From Granulicella sp. (lineage in GTDB: Bacteria; Acidobacteriota; Terriglobia; Terriglobales; Acidobacteriaceae): a DNA stretch of 33,702 nucleotides. The notes beneath the pieces were generated by a model. It searched no databases. It was not told the origin of the DNA and saw nothing but the letters and a program-made list of their open reading frames with translations. The position numbers and the translations under genes are program-made. The stretch covers positions 1 to 33,702 of the forward strand of contig DAHXNO010000166.1 in assembly GCA_027365345.1 (NCBI GenBank). The letters run 5' to 3'. Shown here piece by piece: positions 1 to 32,998 of the stretch (position 1 is its first letter; each line of letters begins with the position of its first letter).

Positions 1-771
1 TGGCGGTATGCCCACCTTGCCTCGGCCAACCGTCGGCATACGCATGCCGAACTCGAATTGAATCTGGTAACCCGGGGGCGGGGTTACTATTTGCTGGGCA
101 ACCGCCGCTATGAGATTCGGCGCGGAGACCTGCTTTGGCTCTTTCCTGCGCAGGAGCACGTTCTATTCGAGCAGACCTCCGACTTCCGCATGTGGATCGC
201 GGTGTTTCGCCGCCGCGCGATCGCCCGGCTCTCTGCGGACAGCTCTGCGCGTGCGCTGCTCAAGCCCAGCATGGCGGGGGAGACCTGCCGTTGCCTGGCG
301 CGGCAGGAATTTGAGCGGCTGGACACTTTGCTGGGCGAGCTAGCCGGTTGTGGCAGGGATCCCTTGCTGATGAACCCCGGTCTGCCGTATGTGCTGGCGA
401 TGGCGTGGCGAAGCTTCCAGCATGCTCCGCAGGCTCCTGCCAGCGACCTCCATCCTGCCGTGGAGCGAGCCTGGCGGATGATGGAGAGTGGTGATGGTTC
501 AGAGGGATTGCAGGATCTGGCTCGCTACTCCGGCCTCAGTGCGGCTCGTCTAAGCCGCCTGTTTCATCAGCAGATGGGTATCACTCTGGTTAGCTTCCGT
601 AACCGCCAGCGAGTGAAGCGGTTCCTTCAGATCTATGGTTCCGGGCAAAGGCAAACCATGCTGGCAGCGGCGTTGGAGGCCGGCTTTGGCAGCTATCCGC
701 AGTTTCATCGCGTCTTCACGCAGGTGATGGGATGTTCTCCGCGCAGCTATCAACAGGCCGAGCTATCCTGA
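1..771 (+). CDS. AraC-family transcriptional regulator (5' end outside window)
   Basis: The reading frame is open from the first base and encodes a cupin-like sensor domain (His-rich stretch followed by ELELNLVTRGRGYYLLGNRRYEIRRGD), so the start lies before the window. A TTG at position 58 would cut this domain and is not the true start. The last 100 residues are a typical AraC double helix-turn-helix: DLARYSGLSAARLSRLFHQQ and a second helix pair ending GSYPQFHRVFTQVMGCSPRSY. Such regulators bind a sugar or other carbohydrate signal in the cupin domain and activate nearby catabolic genes. It converges on the isomerase-like gene, and the two 3' ends overlap by 22 bp. Its target cannot be seen directly. 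The GH79 to GH95 pair, or a gene left of the window, are candidates. Confidence 0.9.
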   Translation, partial: WRYAHLASANRRHTHAELELNLVTRGRGYYLLGNRRYEIRRGDLLWLFPAQEHVLFEQTSDFRMWIAVFRRRAIARLSADSSARALLKPSMAGETCRCLARQEFERLDTLLGELAGCGRDPLLMNPGLPYVLAMAWRSFQHAPQAPASDLHPAVERAWRMMESGDGSEGLQDLARYSGLSAARLSRLFHQQMGITLVSFRNRQRVKRFLQIYGSGQRQTMLAAALEAGFGSYPQFHRVFTQVMGCSPRSYQQAELS

Positions 772-1619
772 GGCACGCTCATGGCCTGCAGCGTGCTGGT
801 CCAGAGCCGATCGATCTTGCCGCGTAGAATCTTCGCCTCTTCCCAACTGTTGGGAAACGTGGAGAGAGCATACCCTCCCTCTACAGGACCAAGCTCTGGA
901 CAGAGGAAGATCTCCCGGCCGTTGTCCCGGTTGCCCTCCAGCCAGCAGTGCAGGATCGCCTGGGCAAAGGGAAGCCACGCACGCAGCTCTGGCGTTGGTT
1001 CGCTGCCATTGCGCGTGACGGGGACCTGAACGTGATGGCCGTTGAAGGGGCGAAGATGAAACTGCTGCGCCTGCTGCACCAGCGCAGGCCAAAGCAGCAG
1101 CCGGCTGGTGAACTGCTCTGGGAGGAGATGCTTGACCACGGCAAAGTGAGAGAAGTCCCAGGAGAGCGGCAACACCCGTCCCGTTGCCTGCTGGTACGCC
1201 TCTACCAGCGCCAGGGTCTTCTCCGGCGTCTCCGTGCAGGTGTTGCGGTGAGTCTCTATGGCCGGCAGCAGACCAAGCTCTTCAGCCTGCTGCATCAGCG
1301 GCAACGCCATTTCCAGCGCCTCCTGGGTGCTGGTATCGTGGCGCCCAAGCTGCACGTTGACCTGGATTGCTCCGGCCGCTTTCAGATCGCGCAGAAGGGC
1401 GGGGAACTCGAGGGGGTTCGCCGACGCCATGCCGCCCAGGAAGATGAGGCCGTAGCGCTGCGCGGCCTCAGCCAGCTCCGCGCTGGGAGCCCAGCACACG
1501 CCATCGAAGCCAGCCTCGCGGATGCGCCGCATCTTCTGATCCAGCGTCCATTCCGCCTCGCGGGATGGATGGTTCATCAGCGTCCAGAGGTTGGCGATGT
1601 GGCGTAGAACAGGCTTCAT
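750..1619 (-). CDS. Xylose-isomerase-like TIM-barrel sugar isomerase/epimerase
   Basis: The protein has 289 aa, usual for the AP-endonuclease-2/xylose-isomerase-like superfamily (PF01261: IolE/IolI, hydroxypyruvate isomerase, sugar epimerases). The expected metal ligands are visible: E122 in AIETHRNT, D155 and H158 in SWDFSHF, H188 in QFHLRP and E242 in CPELGP. There is no signal peptide, so it is cytoplasmic. The start at 1619 has AAGGAG about 12 nt upstream, a rather long spacing. It is divergent from the GH79 to GH95 genes. Members of this superfamily act on hydroxy-aldehydes, keto sugars or keto acids, and some occur in apiose/apionate clusters as isomerases or decarboxylases. It is one of two sugar-isomerase candidates here, the other being the FucI-like protein at 12044. 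The exact substrate is unknown. Family assignment is strong, role weak. Confidence 0.85.
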   Translation of the reverse strand: MKPVLRHIANLWTLMNHPSREAEWTLDQKMRRIREAGFDGVCWAPSAELAEAAQRYGLIFLGGMASANPLEFPALLRDLKAAGAIQVNVQLGRHDTSTQEALEMALPLMQQAEELGLLPAIETHRNTCTETPEKTLALVEAYQQATGRVLPLSWDFSHFAVVKHLLPEQFTSRLLLWPALVQQAQQFHLRPFNGHHVQVPVTRNGSEPTPELRAWLPFAQAILHCWLEGNRDNGREIFLCPELGPVEGGYALSTFPNSWEEAKILRGKIDRLWTSTLQAMSVPQDSSAC

Positions 1620-1655
1620 GGGTGCTGGGCGCTCCTTCGTGATCTCGTCGCGATC

Positions 1656-1684
1656 TTATTGTCCCACCCGGCTTCCTCGCACAA
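1656..1684 (-). promoter_or_regulatory. Putative sigma70-type promoter of isomerase-like gene
   Basis: On the minus strand TTGTGC (1684-1679) is followed after 17 nt by CAATAA (1661-1656), about 37 nt before the start codon at 1619. Match to consensus is moderate. This was read by eye only. Confidence 0.3.
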
Positions 1685-1881
1685 CCTTTCGATTCCCTCT
1701 GTCCCACGCTCCTGGTCTGGCTCTTCCCGTGTGGCGTAACTGTAGCGTGGCATTGGCTTACGCCGAGTTCGGAAGGTTCTGAGAAGGGCGAGCGCTCGCT
1801 TCCCCGAGGCCGATGCTGAACTGCGAACTCGCATATCCTTGCAGCTACTCAAAAACTTCCGTCGGCGATACCTCGGATCCC

Positions 1882-1911
1882 TTGACACGGCGTAGCGCTG
1901 GAGCTTTGCAT
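1882..1911 (+). promoter_or_regulatory. Putative promoter of GH79-GH95, overlapping a TTGCATAA motif
   Basis: A perfect TTGACA (1882-1887) is followed after 18 nt by TTGCAT (1906-1911). The -10 overlaps TTGCATAA (1906-1913), whose reverse complement TTATGCAA recurs upstream of the transketolase operon. If this promoter is real, the transcript starts near 1918, which favours a GH79 start at 2008 or 2026 over the ATG at 1927. Confidence 0.35.
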
Positions 1912-2025
1912 AAGGACTGTTGCGCCATGGCCTTCCTCCGTCTCACGGCTTCATCCAGCGTGGGCGGGAGCGCCAGGTGCGGTCCGGCCGGCCGGCGCAA
2001 CGATTTCATGGTTCATGGAATCCAG

Positions 2026-3540
2026 ATGCCGGGAGAACGAGGTCCGCGTCCCCTGGCACCCTTCCCTCGCCGCCATTTTCTTTCGCTTGCAGCATCCGCG
2101 GCAGCGGGTGTGCTCACCCAGCGCGGCTCTGCGCAGAGCACTTACGCTGCGCAACGCTCCGCCAGGGAGACCGGTGACACGCCAGCAGCTATCCGCGGCA
2201 GTTTGCAGATGGAGCCGCAACGGGAGCTGGCTGCCATTCCGGCCGACTACAACGGGCTCAGCTATGAGTCGGCGCAACTGGCGAACCCAGCATTTTTTTC
2301 TGCGCAGAATCGGCAACTGATTGCTCTCTTCCGGGCATTGAGTCCAGGCGGCGTATTGCGCCTTGGAGGCGGCACCTCAGAGTACACCACCTTTTCGGAG
2401 CAGGCTCCCTCCGGACCTCCGCCCTTTGAAGTCTTCGGGCCAGACACCAGCAAGACGGTCAAGAAGGGTACAGTGACCTCGGCTCTGGCGCTGCGCAACC
2501 TGCGCGCCTTTCTGGATGCAACCGGATGGAGTTGCATCTACGGCCTGAATCTGGGCCAGGGAACCAAGCAGAACGCCGCCGCAGAGGCTGCGGCCGCCTG
2601 CCGGATATTGGGCCCGCGGCTTCTGGCTCTGCAGATCGGCAACGAACCAGACTCCTTCAGCCACTTTCGTCCCAAGGGCTGGGGGCCAGAGGCCTACGTC
2701 CGTCAGTGGCTGGAGTATCACGCAGCCATTGTGGAGCGCACTCCACAGGCGAAGTTCGCCGGTCCCGATATCTCCAACAAGCTGGCGTACCTCACGGCCT
2801 TTGCAGCGATGGCTTCGCAGCGCCCGGACATTGTCCTTCTTACCGTCCACTACTACGCGATGGGGCCGGCGGGAAATCCGTTGGCCACCATGCAGAACCT
2901 GCTCAGTCCCAACCCCAAGCTCACCACCATGCCCTGGGCCAAGGTCTCCATTGTGCAGGAGGCTATGCGCTCCGCCCACCTTCCCTGCCGCATCTCTGAG
3001 GTGAACTCGTGTTGGAACGGAGGGCTCGCCGGGGTTTCGAATACCTTTGCCTCAGCCCTGTGGTGCGCGGACATGATGCTACACTTTGCCACCTTGGGGA
3101 TGGCGGGCGTCAATCTACACGGCGGAGGCAACGGATGGTATTCCCCCATCGTCGGCAGCCCATCCGCGGGGTTTCTGCGCCGGCCGGAGTATATGGGAAT
3201 GCAGTTTGCGCAACGCTTCGCAGGCGCCACCCTGCTCCACAGCAGCCTTGAGTGCAGCAGCGATGGAGTTACGGCCTACGCGGCGCGCGAGCCCGGAGCC
3301 GGGCGGCAAGAGTCTTTGCTGGCCGTGATCAATAAGACGAATGCTCCGGCGGCGATCAAGCTTACGGGAGCACTGAACTCGGCGCGCCACAGCCTGGCCA
3401 CTGCCCTCACCGCTCCCGCACTGGATGCGACCGCCGCCGTAACCCTGCACCAGCAAAGGTTACCGATCGCAGCCGGCGGCGTACTTCATCTGGAGCCCCA
3501 TTCCGCTCTGTTGTGGGGTGCGCAGGCGTCTGTAAGTTAA
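2026..3540 (+). CDS. GH79-type beta-glucuronidase, Tat-exported
   Basis: A retaining (beta/alpha)8 glycosidase of clan GH-A. The motif YNGLSYESAQL after the leader resembles the GH79 beta-glucuronidase of Acidobacterium capsulatum. The expected acid/base Glu is E207 in IGNEPDSF and the nucleophile is E325 in CRISEVNSCWNGG. A C-terminal beta-domain follows. The leader PRRHFLSLAASAAAG is a twin-arginine signal. The frame is open from 1813; I chose ATG 2026 because it gives a compact Tat leader, but ATG 2008 and ATG 1927 (AAGGA 10 nt upstream) are alternatives. Predicted role: release of terminal beta-linked GlcA or 4-O-methyl-GlcA from pectin, arabinogalactan or RG-II side chains. The GH95 gene follows after 20 bp, so the two are co-transcribed. 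GH79 also contains heparanases and hyaluronoglucuronidases, so the substrate is inferred. Confidence 0.85.
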   Translation: MPGERGPRPLAPFPRRHFLSLAASAAAGVLTQRGSAQSTYAAQRSARETGDTPAAIRGSLQMEPQRELAAIPADYNGLSYESAQLANPAFFSAQNRQLIALFRALSPGGVLRLGGGTSEYTTFSEQAPSGPPPFEVFGPDTSKTVKKGTVTSALALRNLRAFLDATGWSCIYGLNLGQGTKQNAAAEAAAACRILGPRLLALQIGNEPDSFSHFRPKGWGPEAYVRQWLEYHAAIVERTPQAKFAGPDISNKLAYLTAFAAMASQRPDIVLLTVHYYAMGPAGNPLATMQNLLSPNPKLTTMPWAKVSIVQEAMRSAHLPCRISEVNSCWNGGLAGVSNTFASALWCADMMLHFATLGMAGVNLHGGGNGWYSPIVGSPSAGFLRRPEYMGMQFAQRFAGATLLHSSLECSSDGVTAYAAREPGAGRQESLLAVINKTNAPAAIKLTGALNSARHSLATALTAPALDATAAVTLHQQRLPIAAGGVLHLEPHSALLWGAQASVS

Positions 3541-3560
3541 AGGGAGTCTGAGGAGAAGAT

Positions 3561-6119
3561 ATGCCCCGAATCACCCGCCGCGTCAGCCGTCGCAGGTTTC
3601 TTCGCGACACCACCCTCAGCGGCGCTGCGCTCTCGTCGGCTAAGCTTCTTGCGCAGCCCAAGCTCACGGCGCAGCCCTCCGGCTCATCCCGCCCATCAGC
3701 AGAACCTGGCTGGGAGGGTCTCCGGCTATTCTTTGACCAACCCGCGGCCACCTGGCAGGACGCTCTGCCCGTGGGAAACGGGCGCTTAGGCGCCATGGTA
3801 TTCGGCAACCCGGATCTCGAACGGATTCAATTGAATGAAGAATCTATCTGGGACGGCGAGTATCGCAACCGGGATAATCCGCGGGCCGGGGAAGCCGTTC
3901 CGCAGATACGGCAACTGCTCTTTGCGGGCAAGGTGCTTCAGGCAGAGGCCATGGCCCTCCGCGACATGCTCTCGATTCCGAACCGGATGCCCTGCTATCA
4001 GACGCTCGGCGATCTCACGCTGGAGTTCTCTGCCTCCGGCTCCGGGAACAACCAGGCGTCCAGCCCTCAGCCGGAAGGCTACCGGCTGGAACTCGACCTG
4101 GACCGCGCCATGGTGACTACGCGCTTTACGCGCAATGGAGTCGACTTTACCCGCGAGATCTTCTCCTCGGCTCCCGACCAGGTGATCGTGATCCGTCTTG
4201 CCGCTTCCCAGCGTGGCGCTCTCTCCGTAGCGGCCTCGCTGGGTCGCCCCGGCAATCATGAGTCCTTTGCAGACGCCTTCGGTGGGCTGGTCCTCTGCGG
4301 AGAGGCACTGCCGGTGAACGACAATCCCGGGCTGCCGGATAAGGAGCGCCAGACCGGCGTTCGATTCTTCTCTTGTCTGCGTGCCCACGCCCAGGGTGGT
4401 AAGGTGAGCACTACTCCCGGGCGCGGCGATCAGCCTGCGCAACTGCTGGTTACCGGCGCGGACGCTGTAACTTTGCTGCTGGACTGCGCAACAAGCTTCC
4501 GCTATCCGGCTGGCGAAGCGGCTATGTCTGCCGCCGTGGAGCGGAATCTGAAGGCCGCCAGCCTGCGCAGCTACGCAGCCCTGCGCAGCCGCCACATCGC
4601 GGACCACCGCGCCATCTTCCGCCGTTGTTCGTTGCATCTGGACACGGGGCCGTCCGATGCGGCCAACGCTCTTTCCTCAATGCCCACGGACCAGCGCATA
4701 CGCCGCATCAAGCAGGGAGCGGACGACCCAGGATTGTTTCCCATCTTCTTTCAGTTTGGCCGCTATCTGCTTATCTCCAGTTCTCGCCCTGGGACGCTGG
4801 CCGCCAACCTGCAGGGCATCTGGAATCAATCGGTGGATCCTCCCTGGGGCTCCAAGTACACCGTCAACATCAATGCGGAGATGAACTATTGGAGCGCGGA
4901 GCGCACCAACCTGGCCGATATCGCCATGCCCTTCTTTGATCTGCTGGATATGACCCGCACGGCCGGCGCCCGCGTGGCGCGCAGCTACTACAGATCGCGC
5001 GGGTTCGTGGTCCATCACAACACCGACCTGTGGGGGGATGCGGGCCCGATTGATGGCCTCGGGGGAGGCATCTGGGCGATGGGCGCCGCGTGGATGTCCA
5101 CCCACCTGTGGGAGCACTATCTCTTCTCTGGCGACACGCAATTCCTGCGTCAGCGCGCGTATCCCCGCCTGCGCGAGATCGCGTGTTTTCTGCTTGATTA
5201 CCTCACGCCTTCTCCTGATGGGCATCTGGTGACCGGGCCCTCCTGTTCCCCGGAAAACTCCTATCGTCTATCGGACGGCAGCGCGGCTCACCTGTGCATG
5301 GCTCCTACGATGGACATTGAGATCACGCGCGCTATCTTCCAGAAGACAGGCCATGCGGCGCGTCTTTTGGGTGTGGACGCCGATCTCTGCCAAGAGATGG
5401 CGGCAGCCGCTGAACGTCTCCCGCCCTTCAAGATAGGCCGCTATGGCAACCTGCAGGAGTGGCAGCAGGACTATGTGGAGGTTGAGCCTGGTCACCGGCA
5501 CATCTCGCATCTGTGGGCGCTCTATCCCGACGACCAGATCACGCTGCGCGGCACGCCAGAGCTAGCCCAGGCCTGCCGCGTCTCTCTGCAGCGCAGATTG
5601 CAGTATGGCGGGGGCAGCACTGGTTGGAGCCGCGCCTGGATTGTGAACTGCTTTGCTCGCCTGGAGGATGGCGATCGTTGTCACCAGCAACTGATGGAGT
5701 TGCTGCGCCGTTCAACACTCGGCAATCTCTTTGATGTCTGCGGCGAGAAGCCAACCTCCTACTTTCAGGTGGACGGCAGCCTGGGCGCACCCGCGGCGAT
5801 GGCGGAGATGCTGCTGCAAAGCCACGGCGGCGTGGTCCGTCTGCTGCCTGCGCTGCCCAGCGCATGGCCTAGCGGCCGTGTGACCGGACTGCGGGCGCGT
5901 GGCGGCCTGGAGGTAGACCTCATCTGGGAGGGAGGGAAGGCCCGGCGCGCGACGCTCTACGCCTCTCTGGACGGAACGATCGCCCTGGCGCTGCCCAGTG
6001 GACAGACGATCCACTCCGTCAATGGCCGGCCTGCGGCGCCGGAACAGGCTGGCGCCGTCCCCAACCAATACCAACTGCAGGTAAGGAAGGGACGCAGATA
6101 CTCGCTGCTGATGGCCTGA
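3561..6119 (+). CDS. GH95 alpha-L-fucosidase / alpha-L-galactosidase, Tat-exported
   Basis: The 852 aa protein has the normal GH95 layout. The leader [15 protein letters not shown] is twin-arginine, followed by an N-terminal beta domain ([27 protein letters not shown]) and an (alpha/alpha)6 barrel. Key residues expected from the bifidobacterial AfcA enzyme are visible: N436 and N438 in NINAEMNYW, the general acid E565 in CSPENSY and D738 in FQVDGSLG. The family inverts and removes terminal alpha-L-Fuc or, in some members such as RG-II enzymes, alpha-L-Gal. The start at 3561 has AGGAG at a good distance. With the GH79 gene 20 bp upstream, the pair could remove an L-Gal cap and then GlcA from RG-II chain A. 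Fucosidase versus galactosidase specificity cannot be decided by eye. Confidence 0.93.
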
Positions 6120-6174
6120 CGGGGCTGCATTCGTCTCAGGGAACGTAGCCGGGTTTCTGCTCGATCGATTCACA

Positions 6175-6273: not shown

Positions 6274-7230
6274 ATGGCGCAATCCGACAAGATCCGCCTG
6301 ATGACCAAAATCGCGCGTATGTACTATGCGCAGGGCATCAGCCAAACGGAGATCACCGACCGGCTCAATGTTCACCAGTCCACGGTCTCACGGCTGCTTA
6401 AGCGAGCGCTTGAATCTGGAATCGTTCGCATCAGCGTCACCGCGCCGGGCGGCGTCCACGCCGATCTGGAGGAGGCGCTCGAGTCGCGCTTCGGCCTGCG
6501 TGAGGCGGTGGTGGTAGACTCCGTCTCCAACCATGAGGCGCAGATCGTTCGCGATATCGGCAGCGCCGGAGCTTCCTTCATGGATCTGGCCGTCCGGCCG
6601 GGCCAGATCATCGGGATCTCCTCCTGGAGTTTATCGCTGCTGGAGATGACCAACGCGATGCACCCCGCCAAGACCGGTGACGGAAGCAAGGTGGTGCAGA
6701 TCCTGGGCGGCCTCGGCAATCCGGCCGCGCAGATGCACGCTACCCACCTGACCCAGCGTTTGGCGCATCTGGTCGGTGGTGAGGCGATCCTGCTTCCTGT
6801 GCCGGGAGTGACATCCTCTGCGCAAGCAAAGAAGGTTCTGCTCCAGGAGAGCTATGTGCGCGCCGCGACAAAGCACTTTGACGGCATGGACCTGGTGCTG
6901 GTGGGTATCGGCGCGGTTGAGCCCTCCCGCCTGCTGGCCAGCAGCGGAAACGTGTTTTCCTCCCAGGAACTGAGCCAGTTGCGGAAACAGGGAGCGGTGG
7001 GCGACATCTGCCTCCAGTTCTTTGACTCCGAAGGGGTTCCGGTGCGCACTGAACTTTCAGAACGAGTGATTGGCATGTCACTGCAACAGATCAAGAAGGC
7101 GAAGCGAGTGGTGGCGCTGGCTGGCGGCAAGCGCAAGTTGGAGGCGATTCGTGGTGCGCTTCTGGGCCAATGGATTGACGTGCTCATTACCGACTGTTGG
7201 ACGGCGAAGGCCATCGTGAATCGAGCCTAG
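6274..7230 (+). CDS. SorC/DeoR-family sugar-responsive transcriptional regulator
   Basis: The 318 aa protein has an N-terminal helix-turn-helix at about residues 15-50 (GISQTEITDRLNVHQSTVSRL) and a C-terminal SorC-type sugar-phosphate-binding domain (about 60-315). The domain shows SWSLSLLEMTNAM, VVQILGGLG, DLVLVGIGAVEPS and the terminal VVALAGGKRKLEAIRGALLGQWIDVLITD. Regulators of this family (SorC, DeoR, EryD, CggR relatives) bind a phosphorylated sugar and control an adjacent sugar operon. AGGAA lies about 6 nt before the ATG. The gene sits between the GH79-GH95 pair and the transketolase-kinase-isomerase operon in the same orientation, so it probably controls that operon, and the effector may be a keto-sugar phosphate made by it. 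The effector is an inference. Confidence 0.9.
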   Translation: MAQSDKIRLMTKIARMYYAQGISQTEITDRLNVHQSTVSRLLKRALESGIVRISVTAPGGVHADLEEALESRFGLREAVVVDSVSNHEAQIVRDIGSAGASFMDLAVRPGQIIGISSWSLSLLEMTNAMHPAKTGDGSKVVQILGGLGNPAAQMHATHLTQRLAHLVGGEAILLPVPGVTSSAQAKKVLLQESYVRAATKHFDGMDLVLVGIGAVEPSRLLASSGNVFSSQELSQLRKQGAVGDICLQFFDSEGVPVRTELSERVIGMSLQQIKKAKRVVALAGGKRKLEAIRGALLGQWIDVLITDCWTAKAIVNRA

Positions 7231-7464: not shown

Positions 7465-7563
7465 AAACGTGGATTGTGAGGGGGTTTTCTGATTCGTTCC
7501 CATGTAAAAATTATTTCGAACGACAGCGCTCGCGGTGAAGAGCAGAAACCATGGGTTGTGACG

Positions 7564-11973: not shown

Positions 11974-12043
11974 CCGCGCCGTAACTCACTGCCGGCACAA
12001 CTTCCAAATGAGATTCCAACGCAAAGATCCACAGGAGAGACAG

Positions 12044-20571: not shown

Positions 20572-20603
20572 ATCGCATCTTTGCGTAATCCTCGGGAGTG
20601 TCC

Positions 20604-21890: not shown

Positions 21891-21949
21891 GGCTTCCTGA
21901 ACCATCCTCCCGCTTCTACCCTGAGGAGGAGAAGGAGCGTGAGCAGCCA

Positions 21950-25127: not shown

Positions 25128-26416
25128 GCCGCTCTGCTCCGGCAACGCTGCTCTACGCCTGGTATGGCGATGACTTCACCGGCTCAACCGATGTGCTGGA
25201 GGCGCTGGCGCTGCACGGCCTTCCGGCGGTGCTCTTCACCCGCCCGCCCAGCCGGCAGGATCTGGCCGCCTTTGCCCATTGCCGCGCCGTCGGCATCGCC
25301 GGAGAGAGCCGCAGCCGCTCGCCGCAATGGATGGACGAGCATCTGCCGCCGGTCTTCGCCGCCATGCGCTCGCTCGGCGCGCCGGTCAATCACTACAAGG
25401 TCTGCTCAACCTTTGACAGCTCGCCCCACACCGGCAGCATTGGCCGCGCCCTGGAGTTGGGCGCCGGCGCCTTTCCGTCGCAGTGGATCCCGGTGGTCGC
25501 AGCCGCTCCGCATCTAGGCCGGTTCGTCGTGTTCGCCAACCTCTTCGCTCAGGCGCAGGACGCCATCTACCGCATCGATCGCCATCCCACCATGAGCCGC
25601 CATCCGGTGACGCCCATGATGGAGTCTGATCTTCGCCGGCATCTGGCCCAACAGACCAGCCTTCCCCTGGGCAGCGTGGATCTGCCGGCGTTGCGCTCCG
25701 GCCGCGCCCCGGAGCAACTCCGCGCGGAGCAACAGTCCGGTGTGCGCGTCATCTTCTTCGATGGGCTGGACGCGGAGACGCTGGAGCAGGCCGCCTCGCT
25801 GCTCTGGGCGGAGGCCACCCGCCAGCCGATCTTTGCCGTAGGCTCTTCCGGCCTCACCTACGGCCTGCTGAGCCTTTGGCGCAGCATGGATGGAATTGGC
25901 TCTGCGCCGGATCCGCCATCGCCCGGCGCAACTGATCGTCTGCTGGTGCTGAGTGGAAGCTGTTCGCCCGTCACGGCGCGCCAGATTGAAGCCGCGCAGC
26001 AGCAAGGCTTCCGCGCCTGGCGCGTCCGTCCTGAAACAACCTTGGCTGCGGATGTCGAGAGGGCGGTGCGCGAGTTGTCGCGCGGCAGCAGCGTGGTGCT
26101 CTACACGGCGCTGGGCGCTGCGGACGCAGCAAGCCCCTATGGAATGGAGCAAAGCCACGCTCTGGGTGAGATGCTGCGTGAGGTGCTTTTGCGCTCCGGG
26201 GTACGCCGGCTGATCATCGCCGGCGGCGATACCGCCAGCCACGCCATGAGCCCTCTGGGGGCCACAGCGCTCACCTTTGCCGCGCCGCTCACGCCGGGTG
26301 CGCCGCTCTGCCGCCTCCACGCTCCGGGTTCAGCGCTGGATGGGTTGCAGGTGGTGCTCAAGGGCGGCCAGATCGGCCCGGAAGACTTCTTTGCCCGTGT
26401 CCGCGACGGAGCATAA
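25124..26416 (+). CDS. DUF1537 (OtnK-like) acid-sugar kinase
   Basis: 430 aa from a GTG that overlaps the RLP stop codon, a sign of coupled translation. The N-terminal substrate-binding domain opens with WYGDDFTGSTDVLEALA, matching the family ADDFTGATD motif. The C-terminal nucleotide-binding domain has LVLSGSCSPVTARQIEAA, IIAGGDTASHAM and LKGGQIGPEDFF. The family is established as kinases for four-carbon and branched acid sugars (threonate, erythronate, and 3-oxo-isoapionate for OiaK). Its product would be the substrate of the adjacent RLP. No PdxA-type dehydrogenase or class II aldolase, which accompany the threonate/erythronate kinases, is present, which favours the RLP-linked branched acid-sugar role. 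The enzymes making the keto acid (dehydrogenase, lactonase) must lie elsewhere. Confidence 0.92.
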   Translation: MSRSAPATLLYAWYGDDFTGSTDVLEALALHGLPAVLFTRPPSRQDLAAFAHCRAVGIAGESRSRSPQWMDEHLPPVFAAMRSLGAPVNHYKVCSTFDSSPHTGSIGRALELGAGAFPSQWIPVVAAAPHLGRFVVFANLFAQAQDAIYRIDRHPTMSRHPVTPMMESDLRRHLAQQTSLPLGSVDLPALRSGRAPEQLRAEQQSGVRVIFFDGLDAETLEQAASLLWAEATRQPIFAVGSSGLTYGLLSLWRSMDGIGSAPDPPSPGATDRLLVLSGSCSPVTARQIEAAQQQGFRAWRVRPETTLAADVERAVRELSRGSSVVLYTALGAADAASPYGMEQSHALGEMLREVLLRSGVRRLIIAGGDTASHAMSPLGATALTFAAPLTPGAPLCRLHAPGSALDGLQVVLKGGQIGPEDFFARVRDGA

Positions 26417-26477: not shown

Positions 26478-27773
26478 TCAGCAGGAGGCAGTCTCCGCCG
26501 GGTTCAAACCCGTTGCCTGTTCCACGGTGTGCGTCACATCCACGCGAGAGAAGAGCAGCGCCGCAACGGCCACCATTCCGGCGATGACAAACAGCGGCGC
26601 GTTGTAGCTTCCGGTAGTCTGAACCACATAGCCAAAGCCCACCGTGGCCAAAAATCCGCCTGCCTGACCGGCGGTATTCATCATGCCGGTCGCCGTTCCG
26701 CTCCACTGCCGACCAATCGCAATGCACATTGCCCAGGCGGAGGGCAGCATCAGGTCCATCATGCCGAACCCCAGGCTGGAGAGCGCCACCGTCGCAACCT
26801 TACCGTGGATGGTCGCCATGGCGCACAACAGCGCCGCCGTCAGCGTCAGGCACACGGCCGGGATGGCGCGCAGAGCAGCCTTGGCGCCCCACCGGATCGC
26901 CAGCCAATCGCCCAACTCGCCTCCTGCAAGGTTGCCCGCAACGCCCATGGCAAAGGGCAAGGAGGCCAGCAGCACGCCATTCAGCGAGAACCCCGCGCTG
27001 TGCACCATCCACACCGGGAACCAGGAGAAGTAAAACCAGCTTCCGCATCCGTAGCAGCCATAGGCCAGCACCAGCAGCCAAAGCTGCCGCGAGCCCAGGA
27101 GCGCCCGCCATGGAATCACTGCCGCGCCATGCGGCTGGGCGGGGCCAATCTCCTCCAGTTCTTCCATGCTCACTCCGGGGTGTTCCGAGGGATGGTTGCG
27201 AAAGCGCGCGTACCACACCGCCGCCCACACGACGCCAAGCACGCCCAGCAGCCGGAACACCGCCCGCCAACCCCAGTACCGCTCCACAGGCACAATCAGC
27301 AGGGGCGCCAGCACGCCGCCCAACCGGCTCGCCGCCCAAACCACGCCCTGGCAGCGCGCCCGTTCCCGCGGAGGGAACCAGCGCGCAATCACCCCGGCAG
27401 CGTTGGGATAGGCCCCAGCCGCGCCCACGCCAAACAGAAACCGCACGCTCAGCAGTTGCCAGAATCCACGGCACCAGCCCGTCAGCGCGGTAAACCCTGA
27501 CCACCATGTGACAATCCGGGTCAGCTCCCCGCGCTGGCCGTGCCGGTCGCCCATCGCTCCGGAGGGCATCTCAAACAATCCGTTGGCCAGCACATAGGCG
27601 CTCAGAATCCATCCCCACGCTCGTGGCCCGATGTGGAGATCTCTCTGGATTCCCGGGGCGGCTACCGCAATCGCAAGGCGGTCAAGAAACGTAAGCACAG
27701 AGAGCAGCCCCAGAAGAGTCAGAACCCAACGCCTCTGCCTCCAGCGCCGCTGCCGACCACTGCTCTGCTTCAA
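26478..27773 (-). CDS. MFS transporter of the ACS (anion:cation symporter) type
   Basis: The 431 aa protein has about twelve membrane segments. Family signs are FLDRLAIAVAAPGIQRDL in helix 1, the loop GAMGDRHGQR between helices 2 and 3, GVGAAGAYPNAAGVIARWFPPRERAR in helix 4-5 and GTATGMMNTAGQAGGFLA in helix 10-11. These match the hexuronate/glucarate/galactonate-type ACS carriers (ExuT, GudP relatives). It starts with a TTG that overlaps the stop of the racemase-fold gene (TTGA), so the two are co-transcribed on the minus strand. An acid-sugar importer next to a DUF1537 kinase and RLP fits uptake of apionate or a similar carboxylate sugar. The specific substrate is inferred. Confidence 0.9.
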   Translation of the reverse strand: MKQSSGRQRRWRQRRWVLTLLGLLSVLTFLDRLAIAVAAPGIQRDLHIGPRAWGWILSAYVLANGLFEMPSGAMGDRHGQRGELTRIVTWWSGFTALTGWCRGFWQLLSVRFLFGVGAAGAYPNAAGVIARWFPPRERARCQGVVWAASRLGGVLAPLLIVPVERYWGWRAVFRLLGVLGVVWAAVWYARFRNHPSEHPGVSMEELEEIGPAQPHGAAVIPWRALLGSRQLWLLVLAYGCYGCGSWFYFSWFPVWMVHSAGFSLNGVLLASLPFAMGVAGNLAGGELGDWLAIRWGAKAALRAIPAVCLTLTAALLCAMATIHGKVATVALSSLGFGMMDLMLPSAWAMCIAIGRQWSGTATGMMNTAGQAGGFLATVGFGYVVQTTGSYNAPLFVIAGMVAVAALLFSRVDVTHTVEQATGLNPAETASC

Positions 27774-28507
27774 TCGTCGGCCTCTGCCTGGCTGCCTGCC
27801 TCCAGCGCCAGCTTGGCCCGCATCACCGCCAGCTCCGGACTGGTGAGAACCGGAACACGCAGCGCTCCCGCCGGGAGACCCTCCACCACGCGCGCCATGG
27901 ACGCTTGAGCCAGCACGATCAGATCCACTCCCTCAAGCTCTTCGAGCAACGCCTTGGACACCAGCGCATCGTGTTTCGCCGTATCGCCGGCCAGCACGGC
28001 AGGGAAGGCGGCTTCACAAAGACACTCTATCAGCTTCACCTCTCTGCCGGCCTGCTTCGCCTTCTCGCGCAGCAGCGCCATGGTGGGGTCCAGCGTGGTG
28101 CGCACCGTGGCTGCCACCCCAATCACGCCGGCCTGGCTCACGGCAGCCTCAGCCATCGCGTCGTCCACGCGCAGCACGGGCAGATCAAAGAGCTGCTGCG
28201 CGATGCGCGTGGCCTGTCCAATGGAAGAGCAGGTCACCAGCACCGCATCGGCTCCCGCCGCTTCGGCAGAGCCAACATGGTCCACCACCCGCCGGGCGGT
28301 GGAACGGCGCAGCCTTCCGGCGCGCATCGTCTCCTGAATCAGGCTCTCGTCCACCATATGAAAGACCCTGAACTCGGCAAGATGCTTTTGGCAAAGCCCG
28401 GCAAAAACAGGCACAACCGAAGGGCTGGTATGAAGAAGCGCAAGCGTAGGTACGGAATCGATCGGCACGGTGCGTATCCTTTCCCACTCTGCGCACATCT
28501 GGCCCAT
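27770..28507 (-). CDS. Asp/Glu-racemase-superfamily protein, second catalytic Cys missing
   Basis: The 245 aa protein has the Asp/Glu/hydantoin racemase fold (PF01177). The first catalytic Cys is C93 in AVLVTCSSIGQAT. At the position of the second Cys (normally in a motif like GCT near residue 202) the sequence reads VLAQASMARVVEG, with no Cys, so classic two-base racemisation is unlikely. One-Cys members of this superfamily include arylmalonate decarboxylase; maleate isomerase uses two Cys. The gene is coupled to the MFS gene and faces GH29 divergently. A role as isomerase, decarboxylase or hydrolase in the acid-sugar pathway is possible but unproven. The first 12 residues are poorly family-like, and a later GTG start (VPIDSVPTLALLHTSPS) is possible. 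Confidence 0.8.
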   Translation of the reverse strand: MGQMCAEWERIRTVPIDSVPTLALLHTSPSVVPVFAGLCQKHLAEFRVFHMVDESLIQETMRAGRLRRSTARRVVDHVGSAEAAGADAVLVTCSSIGQATRIAQQLFDLPVLRVDDAMAEAAVSQAGVIGVAATVRTTLDPTMALLREKAKQAGREVKLIECLCEAAFPAVLAGDTAKHDALVSKALLEELEGVDLIVLAQASMARVVEGLPAGALRVPVLTSPELAVMRAKLALEAGSQAEADD

Positions 28508-28674: not shown

Positions 28675-30348
28675 ATGGATGTTGCTGCTCCGCGCCGGCG
28701 CATGGTTCGCCTTGGCGTACCCTTTGCTTCCGCGCTCGCGCTGTTCGCTTATGCCTGCGCCGCTCGCGCCCAATCCAACCCAGCCGTGCAGCGGGAGCTG
28801 CAACAGATTCAAGCGGCGACCCAAGCTGGCCCCTTTCGCCCGGACTGGAACTCTCTGGGCGCCTATCGCGTGCCCGGCTGGTTTCGCGACGCCAAGTTCG
28901 GCATCTTCATTCACTGGGGCGTCTACTCGGTTCCCGCCTTCGGCAACGAGTGGTACTCACGGAATATGTATCAGCAGGGAACCCCTGCGTTCCAGCATCA
29001 GGTGGCAACCTACGGTCCACAGTCGAAGTTCGGCTACAAAGACTTTATTCCGCTCTTTCGTGGCCAGCACTTTGACGCCGCGCAGTGGGTCGATCTGTTC
29101 GTTCGCTCAGGCGCGCGCTACATCGTTCCGGTGGCGGAGCATTGCGACGGCTTCGCCATGTATAACTCCAGCATCACGCCGTGGAACGCTGTCAACCTGG
29201 GCCCTCACCGCGATGTTGTTGGACAGCTTGCAGCCGCTGCGCGCGCCCGTGGCCTGCGCTTCGGCGTCTCCTCGCATCGCGCCGAGCACTGGTGGTGGTA
29301 TGACGGCGGAATGGCCTTTGACTCCGATGTGCGCAGCCTCCGCTACGCCTCTCTGTACGGCCCCGCTCAGCCCATGTGGTTGCCCGGCTCAGTGAGTAAA
29401 AAGGAGCCCAATCCCAATCATCTGGAGCAATGGCGTCCTCCCAACGCCGCCTTCCTGGAGGACTGGCTGGCTCGCAGTGGCGAACTCGCCGCAAGATACC
29501 ACCCCGACTTCTTTTACTTCGACTGGTGGATCGGCCAGCCCTCCTTCCGTCCCTATCTGAAGAGGTTCGCCGCGTACTACTACGATCAAGCAGCGCGCCG
29601 CGGCCAGCCGGTTGTGCTCACCTACAAGGAGCAGGCCATGCCCGCCCATACCGCGGTGTTGGACATTGAGCGCGGCAAGATGCAGAACACCCGGCTGCTG
29701 CCCTGGGAGACAGACACTTCGGTCAGCATCCACTCCTGGGGCTATGTGGCCAACGATACGTATCGTGACGCCGGCTCACTGATCGACGAGCTCGTGGACG
29801 TGGTCAGCAAGAACGGCAACCTGCTGCTCAACGTCGGCCCCCGCGCCGACGGAACCATCCCTGAACCGGTGCAGAACGTCCTGCTGCAGATGGGCGCGTG
29901 GCTGCGCGTGAACGGAGAGGCCATCTACGGCTCTCGCCCCTGGTTTGTCTTCGGCGAAGGTCCACACCTGGACGCCTCATCGGCGATGAATACGGATCGT
30001 CAGCAGTTCAACGCCGCCGACATCCGTTACACCACACGATCCGGAAACCTTTATGCGATCTCCCTCGGCTGGCCGGCCAACGGCCATCTGCGCCTGCAAT
30101 CGCTGTTTTTAGGCACGCCTTATCTGCCAAGCCCCGTCGCCAGCGTAGAGCTGCTCGGTTCCGCAGCGCATCTGGTGTGGCAGCAGCAGAGCGATGGCCT
30201 CTCGATCCAACTGCCGCAGACGCGGCCGCAGGAACAACCGGCGTACGTGTTTCGCATCCGCACCACGGCGGTCCGGCAGAGCGCAACCGCCTCCACCCAC
30301 GCAGGCCCTCAGTCAGAGCCTCAGGCGAGCCCGGACGCGCTTCCTTGA
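28675..30348 (+). CDS. GH29 alpha-L-fucosidase, secreted
   Basis: The 557 aa protein starts at ATG 28675 (AAGG 7 nt upstream) with a Sec-type leader (RMVRLGVPFASALALFAYACAARAQS). The GH29 barrel has WFRDAKFGIFIHWGVYSVPAFGNEWYSRNMY, RSGARYIVPVAEHCDGFAMYNS and the nucleophile D283 in FFYFDWWIG, followed by a typical DVVSKNGNLLLNVGPRADGTIP segment and a C-terminal beta-domain. GH29 enzymes retain configuration and release alpha-L-Fuc, in RG-II, xyloglucan or arabinogalactan. The acid/base Glu is poorly conserved in GH29 and was not assigned. The next gene follows after 74 bp in the same direction and is probably co-transcribed. Linkage specificity is unknown. Confidence 0.93.
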   Translation: MDVAAPRRRMVRLGVPFASALALFAYACAARAQSNPAVQRELQQIQAATQAGPFRPDWNSLGAYRVPGWFRDAKFGIFIHWGVYSVPAFGNEWYSRNMYQQGTPAFQHQVATYGPQSKFGYKDFIPLFRGQHFDAAQWVDLFVRSGARYIVPVAEHCDGFAMYNSSITPWNAVNLGPHRDVVGQLAAAARARGLRFGVSSHRAEHWWWYDGGMAFDSDVRSLRYASLYGPAQPMWLPGSVSKKEPNPNHLEQWRPPNAAFLEDWLARSGELAARYHPDFFYFDWWIGQPSFRPYLKRFAAYYYDQAARRGQPVVLTYKEQAMPAHTAVLDIERGKMQNTRLLPWETDTSVSIHSWGYVANDTYRDAGSLIDELVDVVSKNGNLLLNVGPRADGTIPEPVQNVLLQMGAWLRVNGEAIYGSRPWFVFGEGPHLDASSAMNTDRQQFNAADIRYTTRSGNLYAISLGWPANGHLRLQSLFLGTPYLPSPVASVELLGSAAHLVWQQQSDGLSIQLPQTRPQEQPAYVFRIRTTAVRQSATASTHAGPQSEPQASPDALP

Positions 30349-30422
30349 ACGGATCGGGCCTCGTAAAAACGGCGAGGATTCCGACCAGTGGAATACACTT
30401 TTAAAGCACGAAGGAGAGCAAG

Positions 30423-31562
30423 ATGAAGATTCCCCGCTGGGCGGCGATTGCAGGACTGGCAACAGCGCTTACCGGCGCACTGGCGCAAACAGGCAACGGC
30501 TTCATCTTTCCACCGCTTTCCAGCGGTCATGCGCTTCCTGGAACGCAGCGCGACAACCATGCCTCCACGGTGGTTGAGTTGAAAGATGGCGACGTGATGG
30601 CCGCCTGGTTCGGCGGCACGAGAGAAGGCGCGCCGGACGTAGCCATCTACGGCGCGCGGTTGCACCAGGGCGTGTGGTCCAGGCCGGTGGAACTGGCTCG
30701 CGCCTCAGGCGTGGCCTGCTGGAACCCGGTGCTCTTCCACACCCGCGACGGGCGCCTCTGGCTGTACTACAAATACGGTACCCACCCCAGCACCTGGAAG
30801 GGCGCTCGCAAGTGGAGCTCTGATGAAGGTCTCACCTGGAGCGCCGCGGAGGATCTGCCCAAAGGAATCCTCGGTCCCATCAAAGACAAGCCTCTCGTCC
30901 TCCGGGACGGAACTATCGTGAGCGGTTCCTCGGTAGAGAACGGCAAGTGGACGGCCTGGATTGAGCGCTCCACCGACGATGGCAGCACCTGGACCAGCTT
31001 CGGCCCGATCACCGTTCCGGATAGTCTGGACATCCCCAACGCGGCGGCGCTCGCCGCCGCAGCCGCAGCCGCCGCATCCGCTCCGGGCGCACGTGGTAGC
31101 GTCGGCGTGCATACCAAGCTGTATCCGCCATCCAAGACCACGGTTGGCATCATTCAGCCGGCCATTATCTCTCTGGGTGGGCCGCATCTTCGCTTCTATG
31201 CTCGCAGCCGTACTCGAGCGGCGCGCATCGCCGTGGCGGACTCCATGGATAATGGCGTTACCTGGACCCAGGCCCACTTCATTGACCTTCCCAATCCCAA
31301 CTCCGGCATTGACGCCGTCGGCCTTCGCGATGGCCACATTGTTCTGGTCTTCAACAACAGCTACGATGCCCGCACGCCGCTGAATCTGGCGGTGAGCGCG
31401 GACGGCGAACACTTCGTCGTCGTCAAGACCCTTGATTCCGGTCCCGGCCAGTACTCTTATCCGGCCATTATTCAGGCGGCCAACGGAGACCTGCTGATCA
31501 CCTACTCCTGGCGTCGCCAGACCATCAAGTTTCTGCGCCTGCCCCTGCGCGACCTTCCCTGA
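30423..31562 (+). CDS. Asp-box (BNR/sialidase-like) six-bladed propeller protein, secreted
   Basis: The 379 aa protein starts at ATG 30423 with AAGGAG 6 nt upstream and a Sec leader ending ALAQ. Asp boxes are visible in SSDEGLTWS, STDDGSTWT and SMDNGVTWT. The N-terminal region HASTVVELKDGDVMAAWFGGTREGAPDVAIYGAR and the segment DKPLVLRDGTIVSGSSVENGKW are typical of a bacterial family usually labelled exo-alpha-sialidase without evidence. An Ala-rich insert (about residues 207-220, 31041-31080) interrupts the propeller. Sialic acid is unlikely in a plant-glycan locus. Kdo, Dha or a uronic-acid-linked rhamnose are more plausible substrates, because RG-II Kdo and Dha hydrolases are sialidase-fold enzymes. 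Function unassigned. Confidence 0.8.
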   Translation: MKIPRWAAIAGLATALTGALAQTGNGFIFPPLSSGHALPGTQRDNHASTVVELKDGDVMAAWFGGTREGAPDVAIYGARLHQGVWSRPVELARASGVACWNPVLFHTRDGRLWLYYKYGTHPSTWKGARKWSSDEGLTWSAAEDLPKGILGPIKDKPLVLRDGTIVSGSSVENGKWTAWIERSTDDGSTWTSFGPITVPDSLDIPNAAALAAAAAAAASAPGARGSVGVHTKLYPPSKTTVGIIQPAIISLGGPHLRFYARSRTRAARIAVADSMDNGVTWTQAHFIDLPNPNSGIDAVGLRDGHIVLVFNNSYDARTPLNLAVSADGEHFVVVKTLDSGPGQYSYPAIIQAANGDLLITYSWRRQTIKFLRLPLRDLP

Positions 31563-31669
31563 AGCTTCGTTTGCATCCCGCAGACGGTTGGGATACGGCT
31601 GCGCACCGGCTCCCTTCAGCGCCGCTCCCTCCGGTCTGGCCGGCTCTCCGCCTTCACAGCCGGGCTCGT

Positions 31670-32998
31670 TCAACGCGCCGGTGTCGTGGAGGAGCCATGA
31701 GCGTCGTCCTTGGTGGCGGCGGCAATCGCATCGCGCGCCCATGAGCTGTAGACAAACTCCGTCTTTTGCTTCTCCCACTCCGCCATGGGCAGAACGTTGA
31801 GTTGCTGCGGGGTCAGCTTGGGCACGCCCACATCCAGGGTCAGCAGGCCGGCATCGCGATCGTGGCGCATCGCGCTCTTGTTCAGGCGCACCTGATTCTC
31901 CGCCGCCCACGCGCCGATGCGGATCGTGGGCAGCTTGGGGATGCTCTTCGTCCTCCAGTTGGCGAAGTGAAGATTCGCCGCCAGCCACTCGGCGGCGCGC
32001 GGCGTCACCCAGGCGGGGCGATGGCTGGCTCCGGGATCAAAGTAGGTGGTGAAGACGTTCTTGTCCGATCCATTCAGCGCGATCACCCGTCTGCGCAGGC
32101 CGGCAAAGAAATCCGGGCCGTGTTCAGGAATCGCAACCACCGTGTCGCTGGTTCCATTCCATATCAACGTAGGTCCTCGCCGCGCTTGCAGGGTAAAGAT
32201 CACCGCGGGCCGGTCGCCCAGAAACGCCAGGGCGCGATACGGGCCGCTCTGGCACATCACCATCCTGCTCGAATCCCAGTAACCCCCAGGGCCGTCCAGA
32301 TCGCCTCCGCCGGTCAGAAAGACCGCATGGATCCTGGGATCCACCGCTCCCGCCAGAGAAACCACAAACGAGCCCATCGAGAATCCAAGCACCGCAATGC
32401 GATGCGGATCCACGTCGCGCCGGCTGTCCAGATAAGAGACAGCCTGCATCACGTCCATCACCATGGCTCCGCCCATCCGCTGGGGCACACCGGCGACGGC
32501 GATCACCCGGTCATGCTCTCCGGTTCCATCGTGGTGCTGGTCATTCCGCTCGCCTTCGCCAATGGGATCGTAGGTAAGCACCACGGCTCCAGCCCGGGCG
32601 TACATCACCCCCGTGTACCAGGAGTACCAACTCGTCTTGTCCGCCCCGTGTCCGTTCACCACCACCATGCCCGGCAGCTTGCCCTTCGCCTCTGCCGGCC
32701 GGTAGACAATGGCCGGCACGCGCAGGCCGTACTCCGTCACATAGGTCACGCGATCGGCTGTCACCCCCGGCGCCGGAGAAAAGTTGCCATAGTGCTGCAC
32801 ATCCAGAGACGGCATCCGCTGGGGAAGAAACAGAGCCTCCCGGATTTGTGACCGCCAGGTGCGCACCTGTCTTCCGGAGACCTGCGCGAGGGCAGGGAAG
32901 GCAGCCATCACAAAAGCGGCGGTGATCAGAGCCGCACGCAGGCCGGGAGGATAGGGCCGGAAACGTCGAAGATAGCGGGTAGAAACAAGGAAGGCCAT
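31670..32998 (-). CDS. Secreted alpha/beta-hydrolase, putative carbohydrate acetylesterase
   Basis: The 442 aa protein has a Sec leader (GLRAALITAAFVMAAFPALAQ) and an alpha/beta-hydrolase core. The core has the oxyanion segment VVNGHGADKTSW, TYDPIGEGERNDQ, the nucleophile elbow VLGFSMGSFVVSL and a late His in DPGASHRPAW; an Asp in WNGTSDTVV may complete the triad. It resembles Abhydrolase_7/acetyl-xylan-esterase-like proteins of plant-polysaccharide degraders. RG-II carries O-acetyl and methyl-ester groups, so an esterase fits the locus. It converges on the Asp-box gene across a 107-bp gap in which I see no strong terminator. Other ester substrates, or peptidase-like activity, remain possible. 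Confidence 0.82.
   Translation of the reverse strand: MAFLVSTRYLRRFRPYPPGLRAALITAAFVMAAFPALAQVSGRQVRTWRSQIREALFLPQRMPSLDVQHYGNFSPAPGVTADRVTYVTEYGLRVPAIVYRPAEAKGKLPGMVVVNGHGADKTSWYSWYTGVMYARAGAVVLTYDPIGEGERNDQHHDGTGEHDRVIAVAGVPQRMGGAMVMDVMQAVSYLDSRRDVDPHRIAVLGFSMGSFVVSLAGAVDPRIHAVFLTGGGDLDGPGGYWDSSRMVMCQSGPYRALAFLGDRPAVIFTLQARRGPTLIWNGTSDTVVAIPEHGPDFFAGLRRRVIALNGSDKNVFTTYFDPGASHRPAWVTPRAAEWLAANLHFANWRTKSIPKLPTIRIGAWAAENQVRLNKSAMRHDRDAGLLTLDVGVPKLTPQQLNVLPMAEWEKQKTEFVYSSWARDAIAAATKDDAHGSSTTPAR

Follow-up and report, generated by a model that had tools for sequence, protein, structure and literature searches.

A candidate island for the utilization of rhamnogalacturonan II side chains and apiose in a soil acidobacterium

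The window, i.e. the whole stretch of DNA analysed here, is the complete 33,702-base contig C92 (DAHXNO010000166.1) of a Granulicella sp. genome, G000, which is estimated to be 100% complete. Judging from its genes, the window is probably one piece of an island with which an Acidobacteriaceae-type species utilizes the side chains of rhamnogalacturonan II (RG-II), and an RG-II/apiose island in a soil acidobacterium is well supported as its predicted nature. Few plant polysaccharides are as complex as RG-II, and most of what is known about its degradation by bacteria comes from gut Bacteroides. What can be read directly from the letters is the gene content, the orthology of an apiose cassette, the relation of a propeller protein to glycoside hydrolase family 137 (GH137; other families are abbreviated likewise) and, for the genome, the lack of a match to ApnO or ApnL. 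The acidobacterial origin proposed in a preliminary description of this DNA agrees with our sample of 150 genomes of the family, which includes Terriglobus albidus: sample genome G148 has the same match coordinates as G156, the genome of the related locus L061.

Twenty-eight open reading frames (ORFs) of the window were scanned with Pfam, and the main ones also with NCBIfam. We took 22 of them as genes (Table 1); all but ORF 750-1619 have a Pfam match (21/22). The genes listed in the preliminary description are present, namely those for GH79 (a weak match), GH95, two GH78, GH127 and GH29 proteins, the propellers, an esterase, an isomerase-kinase-transketolase set and a pair consisting of a RuBisCO-like protein (RLP) and a DUF1537 kinase. 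The list is sound as given but lacks two transporters, three regulators, a racemase-like protein and the TIM-barrel gene at 750-1619 on the minus strand. As described before, the window is free of SusCD, no SusC or SusD match being found by the Pfam scan among the 28 ORFs.

From these genes we infer the following scheme, with all its activities and products, RG-II as the substrate and the type of compound handled by the RLP pair. The glycosidases (GH95, GH79-like, GH29, two GH78, GH137-like, GH127 and BNR proteins) would trim the RG-II side chains, and a GH140 enzyme from another contig of the same genome would free apiose, which may be imported by the permease of the drug/metabolite transporter (DMT) type. 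The COG2407 isomerase would convert apiose to apulose, the AplK-like kinase would phosphorylate apulose, and the two-subunit transketolase would yield dihydroxyacetone phosphate (DHAP) and xylulose 5-phosphate, with the SorC regulator controlling the apiose genes. A second putative operon would comprise the IclR-type regulator, GH127, RLP and DUF1537, with an acid-sugar transporter of the major facilitator superfamily (MFS) and the racemase-like gene behind it on the opposite strand. Here, a branched beta-keto sugar acid may be phosphorylated and decarboxylated by DUF1537 and RLP through OiaK/OiaX-type chemistry.

The five-bladed propeller had been left unassigned in the preliminary description. 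Its presence holds, but it matches the NCBIfam glucuronidase/arabinofuranosidase (BT0996-type) model (E 1.7e-27, positions 31-350 of 1400), the score being far below the cut-off of a model built for a 1400-residue two-domain protein. Among PDB structures it matches 5mt2 (E 4.4e-19) and 5mui (E 1.1e-18), which we take to be the N-terminal GH137 domain of BT0996, and two Glu residues of 5mt2 that are presumably catalytic, E159 and E240, both fall on Glu residues of the window propeller in the alignment. By its sequence matches, the propeller is a relative of GH137, an RG-II enzyme family; GH137 and GH142 are RG-II beta-L-arabinofuranosidases according to PMC10850190. The genome has one match to the GH140 apiosidase family, at 71 bits (cut-off 26.5), on contig C55 and not on that of the window. 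Several of the window's glycosidases have signal-peptide-like N-termini, and the GH79-like protein has homologues of 62% identity in an island of genome G098 and of 52% near an apiose cassette of G008. The RG-II side-chain theme of the preliminary description is borne out by the GH137-related propeller, by GH140 on another contig of the genome and by the GH95, GH78, GH127 and GH29 genes.

The GH140 gene on C55 lies on the minus strand with that for an 887-aa protein, and the plus strand of the same neighbourhood encodes DUF1537b, PdxA, an SSF symporter, an HpaI-type aldolase and an iron-containing alcohol dehydrogenase (Fe-ADH), followed by a GH65/MGH1-like glycosidase, a SUMF1-BNR protein and an arabinosidase-like protein. 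In G098, homologues of all ten are found on one contig with an RLP island, about 47 kb overall, which also holds genes for GH29, two GH42, racemase-like, MFS, DUF1537, RLP, GH127, GH78, IclR-type, GH79, BNR, TIM-barrel and AraC proteins. By analogy with this single-contig layout, the window and C55 probably derive from a single island. GH140 homologues also lie within the islands of G160 and G161. In the Alphaproteobacteria, a Croceibacterium plasmid carries within about 40 kb a GH95-AptA-AptB-AplK run, GH106, two GH42, GH29, a GH137-like protein, a GH127-RLP-DUF1537 run, an esterase and a BNR protein, and thus adds GH106 and GH42 to the window-type content.

The apiose cassette resembles a known system. 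PMC13001218 names aplK, aptA and aptB in E. coli SE15. Growth on apiose is reported there for E. fergusonii and for three E. coli strains other than SE15, all of which have the cluster; SE15 itself is not among the strains grown, and the E. coli apiose cluster is missing an isomerase gene. The window proteins share 44% (regulator), 45% (AptA), 41% (AptB) and 41% (AplK) identity with those of the SE15 cluster. The genes for the transketolase N and C subunits (TK-N and TK-C) and the kinase follow one another in this order, so that the split transketolase adjoins the kinase, which is glycerol-kinase-like in both the window and SE15; the other TK-C match in G000 is 35% identical. In a tree of 19 kinases, the 14 apt-linked ones (the window's included), from Acidobacteria, Sphingomonads and Enterobacterales, are on one side of a branch with 96/92 support, and on the other side are three plasmid GlpK, the GlpK-like copy of G000 and a far FGGY row of the same genome on a long branch. 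A glycerol-kinase or housekeeping origin of the kinase is ruled out by this tree, and the GlpK-like copy, located on C56, is just 39% identical to it. Placement among housekeeping homologues, which by the preliminary description would have spoken against its reading, is thus not what the kinase shows; it groups with apt-linked kinases.

In Rahnella and Sodalis, relatives of the isomerase with 50% identity are encoded between AptB and AplK, and a small record from Klebsiella has a member of the family next to AplK; it is by gene position only that it qualifies as the dedicated aldose isomerase of the apiose route. Orthologues of at least 70% identity are found in 5 of the 150 family genomes. 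In the four besides G000, the genes for SorC, TK-N, TK-C, kinase and isomerase lie within 10 kb of each other, the isomerases of these acidobacterial cassettes being 71-76% identical, which indicates that the grouping is more than chance. The permease has an 80% homologue in the G008 cassette, with none found in the other three, and a 58% homologue beside an ApnO-type cluster at locus L100. Together, the SE15 matches, the kinase tree and the isomerase position in Rahnella and Sodalis support the isomerase-kinase-transketolase route to which the preliminary description had assigned these genes. Two other assignments were considered and set aside. A general fucose/arabinose isomerase was rejected, as the family at about 50% identity occurs without a transketolase neighbour in the four regions inspected (G000:C193, G064, G035 and G117). 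A sulfoquinovose-type isomerase/transketolase route was rejected because the isomerase scores just 88 bits with the SftI model (cut-off 700) and because the apiose cluster is what the kinase and the regulator match.

The preliminary description also proposed a second, oxidative apiose route through the RLP-DUF1537 pair. The best NCBIfam models are OiaX for the RLP (439 bits) and OiaK for DUF1537 (464 bits), neither reaching its cut-off of 700. Genome contigs were scanned with the aligned RLPs of the window and of Croceibacterium; of the 551 confirmed loci, the best 80 were compared with four plasmid loci and the window, i.e. 85 in all. Before any tree was made, we drew a set of 21 loci whose flanks (at most 10 kb; some contigs are short) lack ApnO and in which the RLP is accompanied by GH127 or by MFS/racemase genes. 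In a quick tree search, these 21 loci occupy one side of a branch (SH-like approximate likelihood-ratio test, SH-aLRT, 99), with ApnO-type acidobacterial rows close by; the window RLP is 55-60% identical to those of L050-L052. GH127 adjoins the RLP in 17/21 clade loci (not at L056, L057, L060 and L062) vs. 0/64 others at a threshold of 44% identity, L094 and L113 among the others having a distant GH127 of 30-31%, and the flanks hold an MFS gene in 18/21 vs. 3/64, a racemase-like gene in 18/21 vs. 4/64 and ApnO in 0/21 vs. 50/64. GH42 is a neighbour in 12/21 vs. 0/64, and an IclR-type regulator of at least 60% identity in 6/21 vs. 0/64. The order GH127-RLP-DUF1537 recurs in 16 other loci, a grouping that is more than chance. 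The RLP clade also differs in single residues; Thr31, for instance, is found in all 21 clade rows and in one of 50 ApnO-type rows. The modules are also carried by cultured relatives, namely Terriglobus albidus (L061) and Sphingopyxis sp. GW247-27LB (L066). A scan of viral contigs gave no RLP relative. RLP-DUF1537-ApnO clusters were also seen in haloarchaea (L052 and L111), one of them on a plasmid.

Whole-genome checks covered 20 clade genomes and one plasmid record, together with nine controls, i.e. genomes from the 64 other loci that were each picked for having ApnO. Every clade member has one OiaX-type RLP, G168 having a second match of 33%. The GH127 subfamily is found at 859 bits or more in 20/21 clade members vs. 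0/9 controls, although the profile rows came from 14 of those 20; of the seven clade genomes outside the profile, six match. One control of the ApnO type, G171, has a GH127-clade homologue at 793 bits beside its ApnO copy. TK-C of at least 60% identity is present in 12/21 clade members vs. 0/9 controls. Seven of these 12, including the window's genome, encode a COG2407 isomerase of at least 71% identity, and the remaining five a xylose-isomerase-like TIM barrel of at least 81%, the record from which that protein was taken being one of the five. G155 and G158 combine TK-C of 43-45% with one of the two isomerase types, the COG2407 type being at least 64% identical over all 14 members. Low-identity TK-C alone says little, because six controls have TK-C of 36-44% with neither isomerase type. 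The xylose-isomerase-like TIM barrel stands in for the isomerase near the transketolase genes at L053:32413-33393 and in G158 and G160-G163 (Sphingomonad-type), an apparent non-homologous replacement of the COG2407 protein.

In G000, neither ApnO (nine-row profile, E 1e-10) nor ApnL (E 1e-20) has a match. ApnO was found in 7/21 clade members and in 9/9 controls, and ApnL (E 1e-20) in 6/21 and 6/9, passing the curated cut-off in 4 of the 30. Six clade genomes carry both on the contig of the RLP, which is their single OiaX-type copy and lies 14-24 kb from ApnO. In G164, the genes for ApnO, an ABC transporter, a Gfo/Idh protein, ApnL and a glycolate oxidase are clustered without an RLP, and the ApnO, ABC transporter, Gfo/Idh and ApnL genes are likewise clustered without one in all of G164-G166, which have no TK-C match. 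Since ApnO is 14-24 kb away and the G164 cluster has no RLP of its own, apionate is most likely what the RLP pair handles in these six genomes. The two-route idea is thus right for some such islands. For the window it is not supported in the form given, as ApnO and ApnL are not found in the genome, the RLP and DUF1537 scores are well below the OiaX and OiaK cut-offs, and the GH127-linked clade of the RLP is a separate one. In two metagenome-assembled genomes that may be incomplete, G167 and G168, the RLP module is present and Apt, ApnO and ApnL have no match. In G157:C3 (L173:9803-12075; the genome of L062, Bryobacteraceae), ApnO directly adjoins GH140, which ties ApnO to apiose release.

3-Oxo-isoapionate is HOCH2-CO-C(OH)(COOH)-CH2OH, and by chemical reasoning the 2-ketose of aceric acid, HOCH2-CO-C(OH)(COOH)-CHOH-CH3, would be its methyl homologue. 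In the literature, RLPs of apiose pathways decarboxylate or transcarboxylate/hydrolyse 3-oxo-isoapionate 4-phosphate (PMC6302742), aceric acid is 3-C-carboxy-5-deoxy-L-xylose, RG-II side chain B contains it together with galactose, arabinopyranose, rhamnose, arabinofuranose, methylfucose and apiose, and BT1003 of B. thetaiotaomicron is an aceric acid hydrolase of GH127. As no ApnO match is found in G000, such an acid would have to reach the window's RLP pair by another way. The pair could be a true OiaX and OiaK, with apiose also oxidized via apionate by unrecognized enzymes that replace ApnO and ApnL, a possibility that we take seriously but hold to be doubtful. OiaX and OiaK are the best models, the six clade genomes with ApnO and ApnL on the RLP contig have only one OiaX-type RLP, the apn cluster of G164-G166 has no RLP inside and no TK-C match in its genome, the GH127 homologue of G171 adjoins ApnO, and racemase and MFS genes also occur at three ApnO-type loci. 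However, G000 has a match to neither ApnO nor ApnL, ApnO was not found in 14 of the 21 clade genomes or records (one of them a plasmid record only), the Apt route is present in 12 of the 21, and the RLP module of G167 and G168 stands in genomes without a match to any of these genes. Apionate made by known enzymes is probably not the substrate in the source strain.

Aceric acid freed by GH127 is a rather tentative candidate for the compound burned by the RLP pair; it would be isomerized to the 2-ketose, phosphorylated at C1, decarboxylated by the RLP to 5-deoxypentulose 1-phosphate and split by an aldolase into DHAP and acetaldehyde. This fits the adjacency of GH127 and RLP in 17/21 vs. 0/64 loci, the GH127 subfamily in 20/21 clade genomes and no control, the family of BT1003, the GH137-like, GH78 and GH42 neighbours that suit chain B as the home of aceric acid, an acid-sugar-type MFS transporter separate from the sugar permease, and a ketose that by chemical reasoning is one methyl group off 3-oxo-isoapionate. 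The window GH127 is, however, not nearest to BT1003: 5mqo, which we take to be that protein, is fourth of nine PDB matches to the clade profile, below 5opj, 4qjy and 6ex6, and likewise fourth for the single window sequence. Moreover, no isomerase for aceric acid was identified, adjacent GH127 is missing at four of the 21 clade loci, the ApnO-bearing clade members have a single OiaX-type RLP, G171 has such a GH127 beside ApnO, and L094 and L113 have distant ones. GH29 is reported to be inactive on the 2-O-methylfucose of chain B. A reading with aceric acid only is weakened because ApnO and ApnL occur in six clade islands and the GH127 is not most like BT1003. We regard apionate and aceric acid as about equally likely. 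It is a similarly speculative proposal that the GH127-RLP-DUF1537 operon and the acid-sugar transporter form an aceric acid route in which the RLP decarboxylates phosphorylated 2-keto-aceric acid, such islands having one catabolic module each for apiose, for aceric acid and for 3-deoxy-D-lyxo-heptulosaric acid (Dha), the last near GH140 on C55. Lactate was rejected as a product of the RLP. A D-lactate dehydrogenase gene occurs in islands L047 and L068, but aceric acid belongs to the L series and on stereochemical grounds would yield L-lactate, and the gene product is best matched by a D-lactate dehydrogenase model.

Several points weigh against the RG-II reading as a whole. The GH79 match is below its cut-off, GH95, GH29 and GH78 are broad families, the aceric acid hydrolase BT1003 is not the nearest relative of the GH127, and the families compared are others than those special to RG-II in B. 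thetaiotaomicron (GH138, GH139 and GH141-GH143). The enzyme functions are predicted from sequence, and the link between the window and C55 is drawn solely by analogy with G098. Among the 150 family genomes, five have the RLP and five the isomerase orthologue, three having both (hypergeometric 1.8e-4, ignoring relatedness); two of these three belong to one genus, and the modules are not adjacent in those two. G008 and G102 have the isomerase cassette with no RLP match (2/5 isomerase genomes), G052 and G098 the RLP with no isomerase orthologue of at least 70% (2/5 RLP genomes), and in G128 and G148 the modules are far apart or on different contigs. An island for apiosylated plant glycosides, or for general pectin rich in rhamnose and arabinose, is an unlikely alternative to one for RG-II: although GH78, GH127, GH29 and GH95 are broad families and more than 1,200 plant metabolites contain apiose (PMC10602602), the propeller is related to GH137, GH140 is in the same genome, and aldolase, Fe-ADH, threonate-kinase-like and PdxA genes lie near GH140, as Dha breakdown would need.

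As an RG-II/apiose island, the window resembles the apiose transketolase route of E. coli SE15 and Pectobacterium in SorC, AptA, AptB and the GlpK-like AplK, and the Rahnella and Sodalis apiose clusters in its COG2407 isomerase. It differs from the aps/apl/apt route in having a DMT permease for the ABC transporter and in its position within a glycosidase island, and, unlike the E. coli cluster, it has an isomerase. With the OiaK/OiaX apionate route of rhizobia and haloarchaea it shares adjacent RLP and DUF1537 genes, but not ApnO or ApnL, which have no match in G000, and its GH127, MFS and racemase-like neighbours and its own RLP clade set it apart. The families GH137 and GH127 are shared with the RG-II loci of B. 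thetaiotaomicron, where GH95, GH78 and GH140 presumably occur as well; in contrast to these loci, the window has no SusCD, contains GH79-like and GH29 proteins and has monosaccharide catabolism built in. Its GH127 is in the same Pfam domain family as BT1003 but nearer to other solved structures.

The GH139 paper gives more than 20 carbohydrate-active enzymes (CAZymes) for RG-II in gut Bacteroides. No acidobacterial or sphingomonad RG-II locus was found among the literature matches listed, one of which names RG-II just as a component of pectin, and no breakdown pathway for aceric acid or Dha is described among the matches listed for these two acids; a search for heptulosaric with threonate gave no match. 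A SusCD-free island in soil Acidobacteriaceae, with a layout partly repeated in Sphingomonadales, suggests how other phyla may degrade RG-II, joining trimming enzymes with dedicated rare-sugar routes. It also names candidate genes for aceric acid and Dha breakdown and provides a clade of RuBisCO-like proteins for which the question of the substrate is well delimited.

Table 1. Genes of the window, with the basis of each assignment.
Feature	Position	Strand	Basis or remark
AraC-type regulator	1..771	+	Pfam HTH_18; 5' end cut by contig end
TIM-barrel sugar epimerase/isomerase-like protein	750..1619	-	Predicted fold
GH79-like glycosidase	1813..3540	+	Pfam Glyco_hydro_79n, 19.2 bits, below 23.1 cut-off
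GH95 family glycosidase	3561..6119	+	Pfam
SorC-type sugar-sensing regulator	6274..7230	+	44% to regulator of E. coli SE15 apiose cluster
Transketolase N subunit, AptA-like	7558..8427	+	45% to SE15 AptA
Transketolase C subunit, AptB-like	8424..9392	+	41% to SE15 AptB
FGGY kinase, AplK-like, candidate apulose kinase	9389..10954	+	41% to SE15 AplK; tree
DMT/ureide-permease-type sugar permease, candidate apiose importer	10951..11973	+	Pfam
COG2407 isomerase (Fucose_iso_C), candidate apiose isomerase	12008..13495	+	50% to Rahnella/Sodalis apt-cluster isomerases
GH78 family (alpha-L-rhamnosidase)	13492..16383	+	Pfam
GH137-like five-bladed propeller, candidate beta-L-arabinofuranosidase	16738..17841	+	NCBIfam and PDB matches
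Divergent GH78-like enzyme	17958..20486	+	Pfam; ORF from 17742, likely start 17958
IclR-HTH and periplasmic-binding-domain regulator	20598..21890	+	Pfam
GH127/GH146-like glycosidase, twin-arginine-like N-terminus	21887..23797	+	Pfam
RLP, GH127-linked clade of OiaX relatives	23841..25127	+	NCBIfam, tree
DUF1537 kinase, OiaK-like	25124..26416	+	GTG start 25124; NCBIfam
MFS transporter, D-galactonate type	26478..27773	-	TIGR00893 best, 205 bits, below cut-off 395
Asp/Glu-racemase-fold protein, one invariant active-site-type Cys	27770..28507	-	Pfam, Foldseek
GH29 family (alpha-L-fucosidase)	28675..30348	+	Pfam
BNR/Asp-box (sialidase-like) protein	30423..31562	+	Pfam
Acetyl-xylan-esterase-like alpha/beta hydrolase	31670..32998	-	Pfam

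The run on C55 (L042:1513-16646) with DUF1537b, PdxA, HpaI-type aldolase, Fe-ADH, SUMF1-BNR and GH140 genes reads like a breakdown route for Dha through D-threonate, as predicted from the encoded proteins. The HpaI-type aldolase, the Fe-ADH and the D-threonate-kinase-like DUF1537 protein score below their model cut-offs and the PdxA homologue above; the best models for the aldolase act on C6-C7 2-oxo-diacids. On the Croceibacterium plasmid, a DapA-family aldolase is found with Fe-ADH, PdxA and DUF1537.

The TIM-barrel protein (750-1619) has no Pfam or NCBIfam match. Its predicted fold is like that of D-tagatose 3-epimerase (mean predicted local distance difference test score, pLDDT, 79), with conserved Glu, Asp, His and Glu. 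The gene is present in 5 of the 150 family genomes, the window's included; in the four relatives, AraC adjoins it in three and is 8 kb away in the fourth, and DUF1537b-PdxA adjoins it in three. A role as partner of the RLP is weakened, the RLP being found in just two of the five genomes with the gene.

The racemase-like gene accompanies RLP-DUF1537 at 18 of the 21 clade loci, at three ApnO-type loci and at L113. Foldseek places the model of its product in the general Asp/Glu racemase fold. One Cys is invariant in 21/21 rows, and Ala-Ser is found at what we assume to be the usual position of the second Cys in this family.

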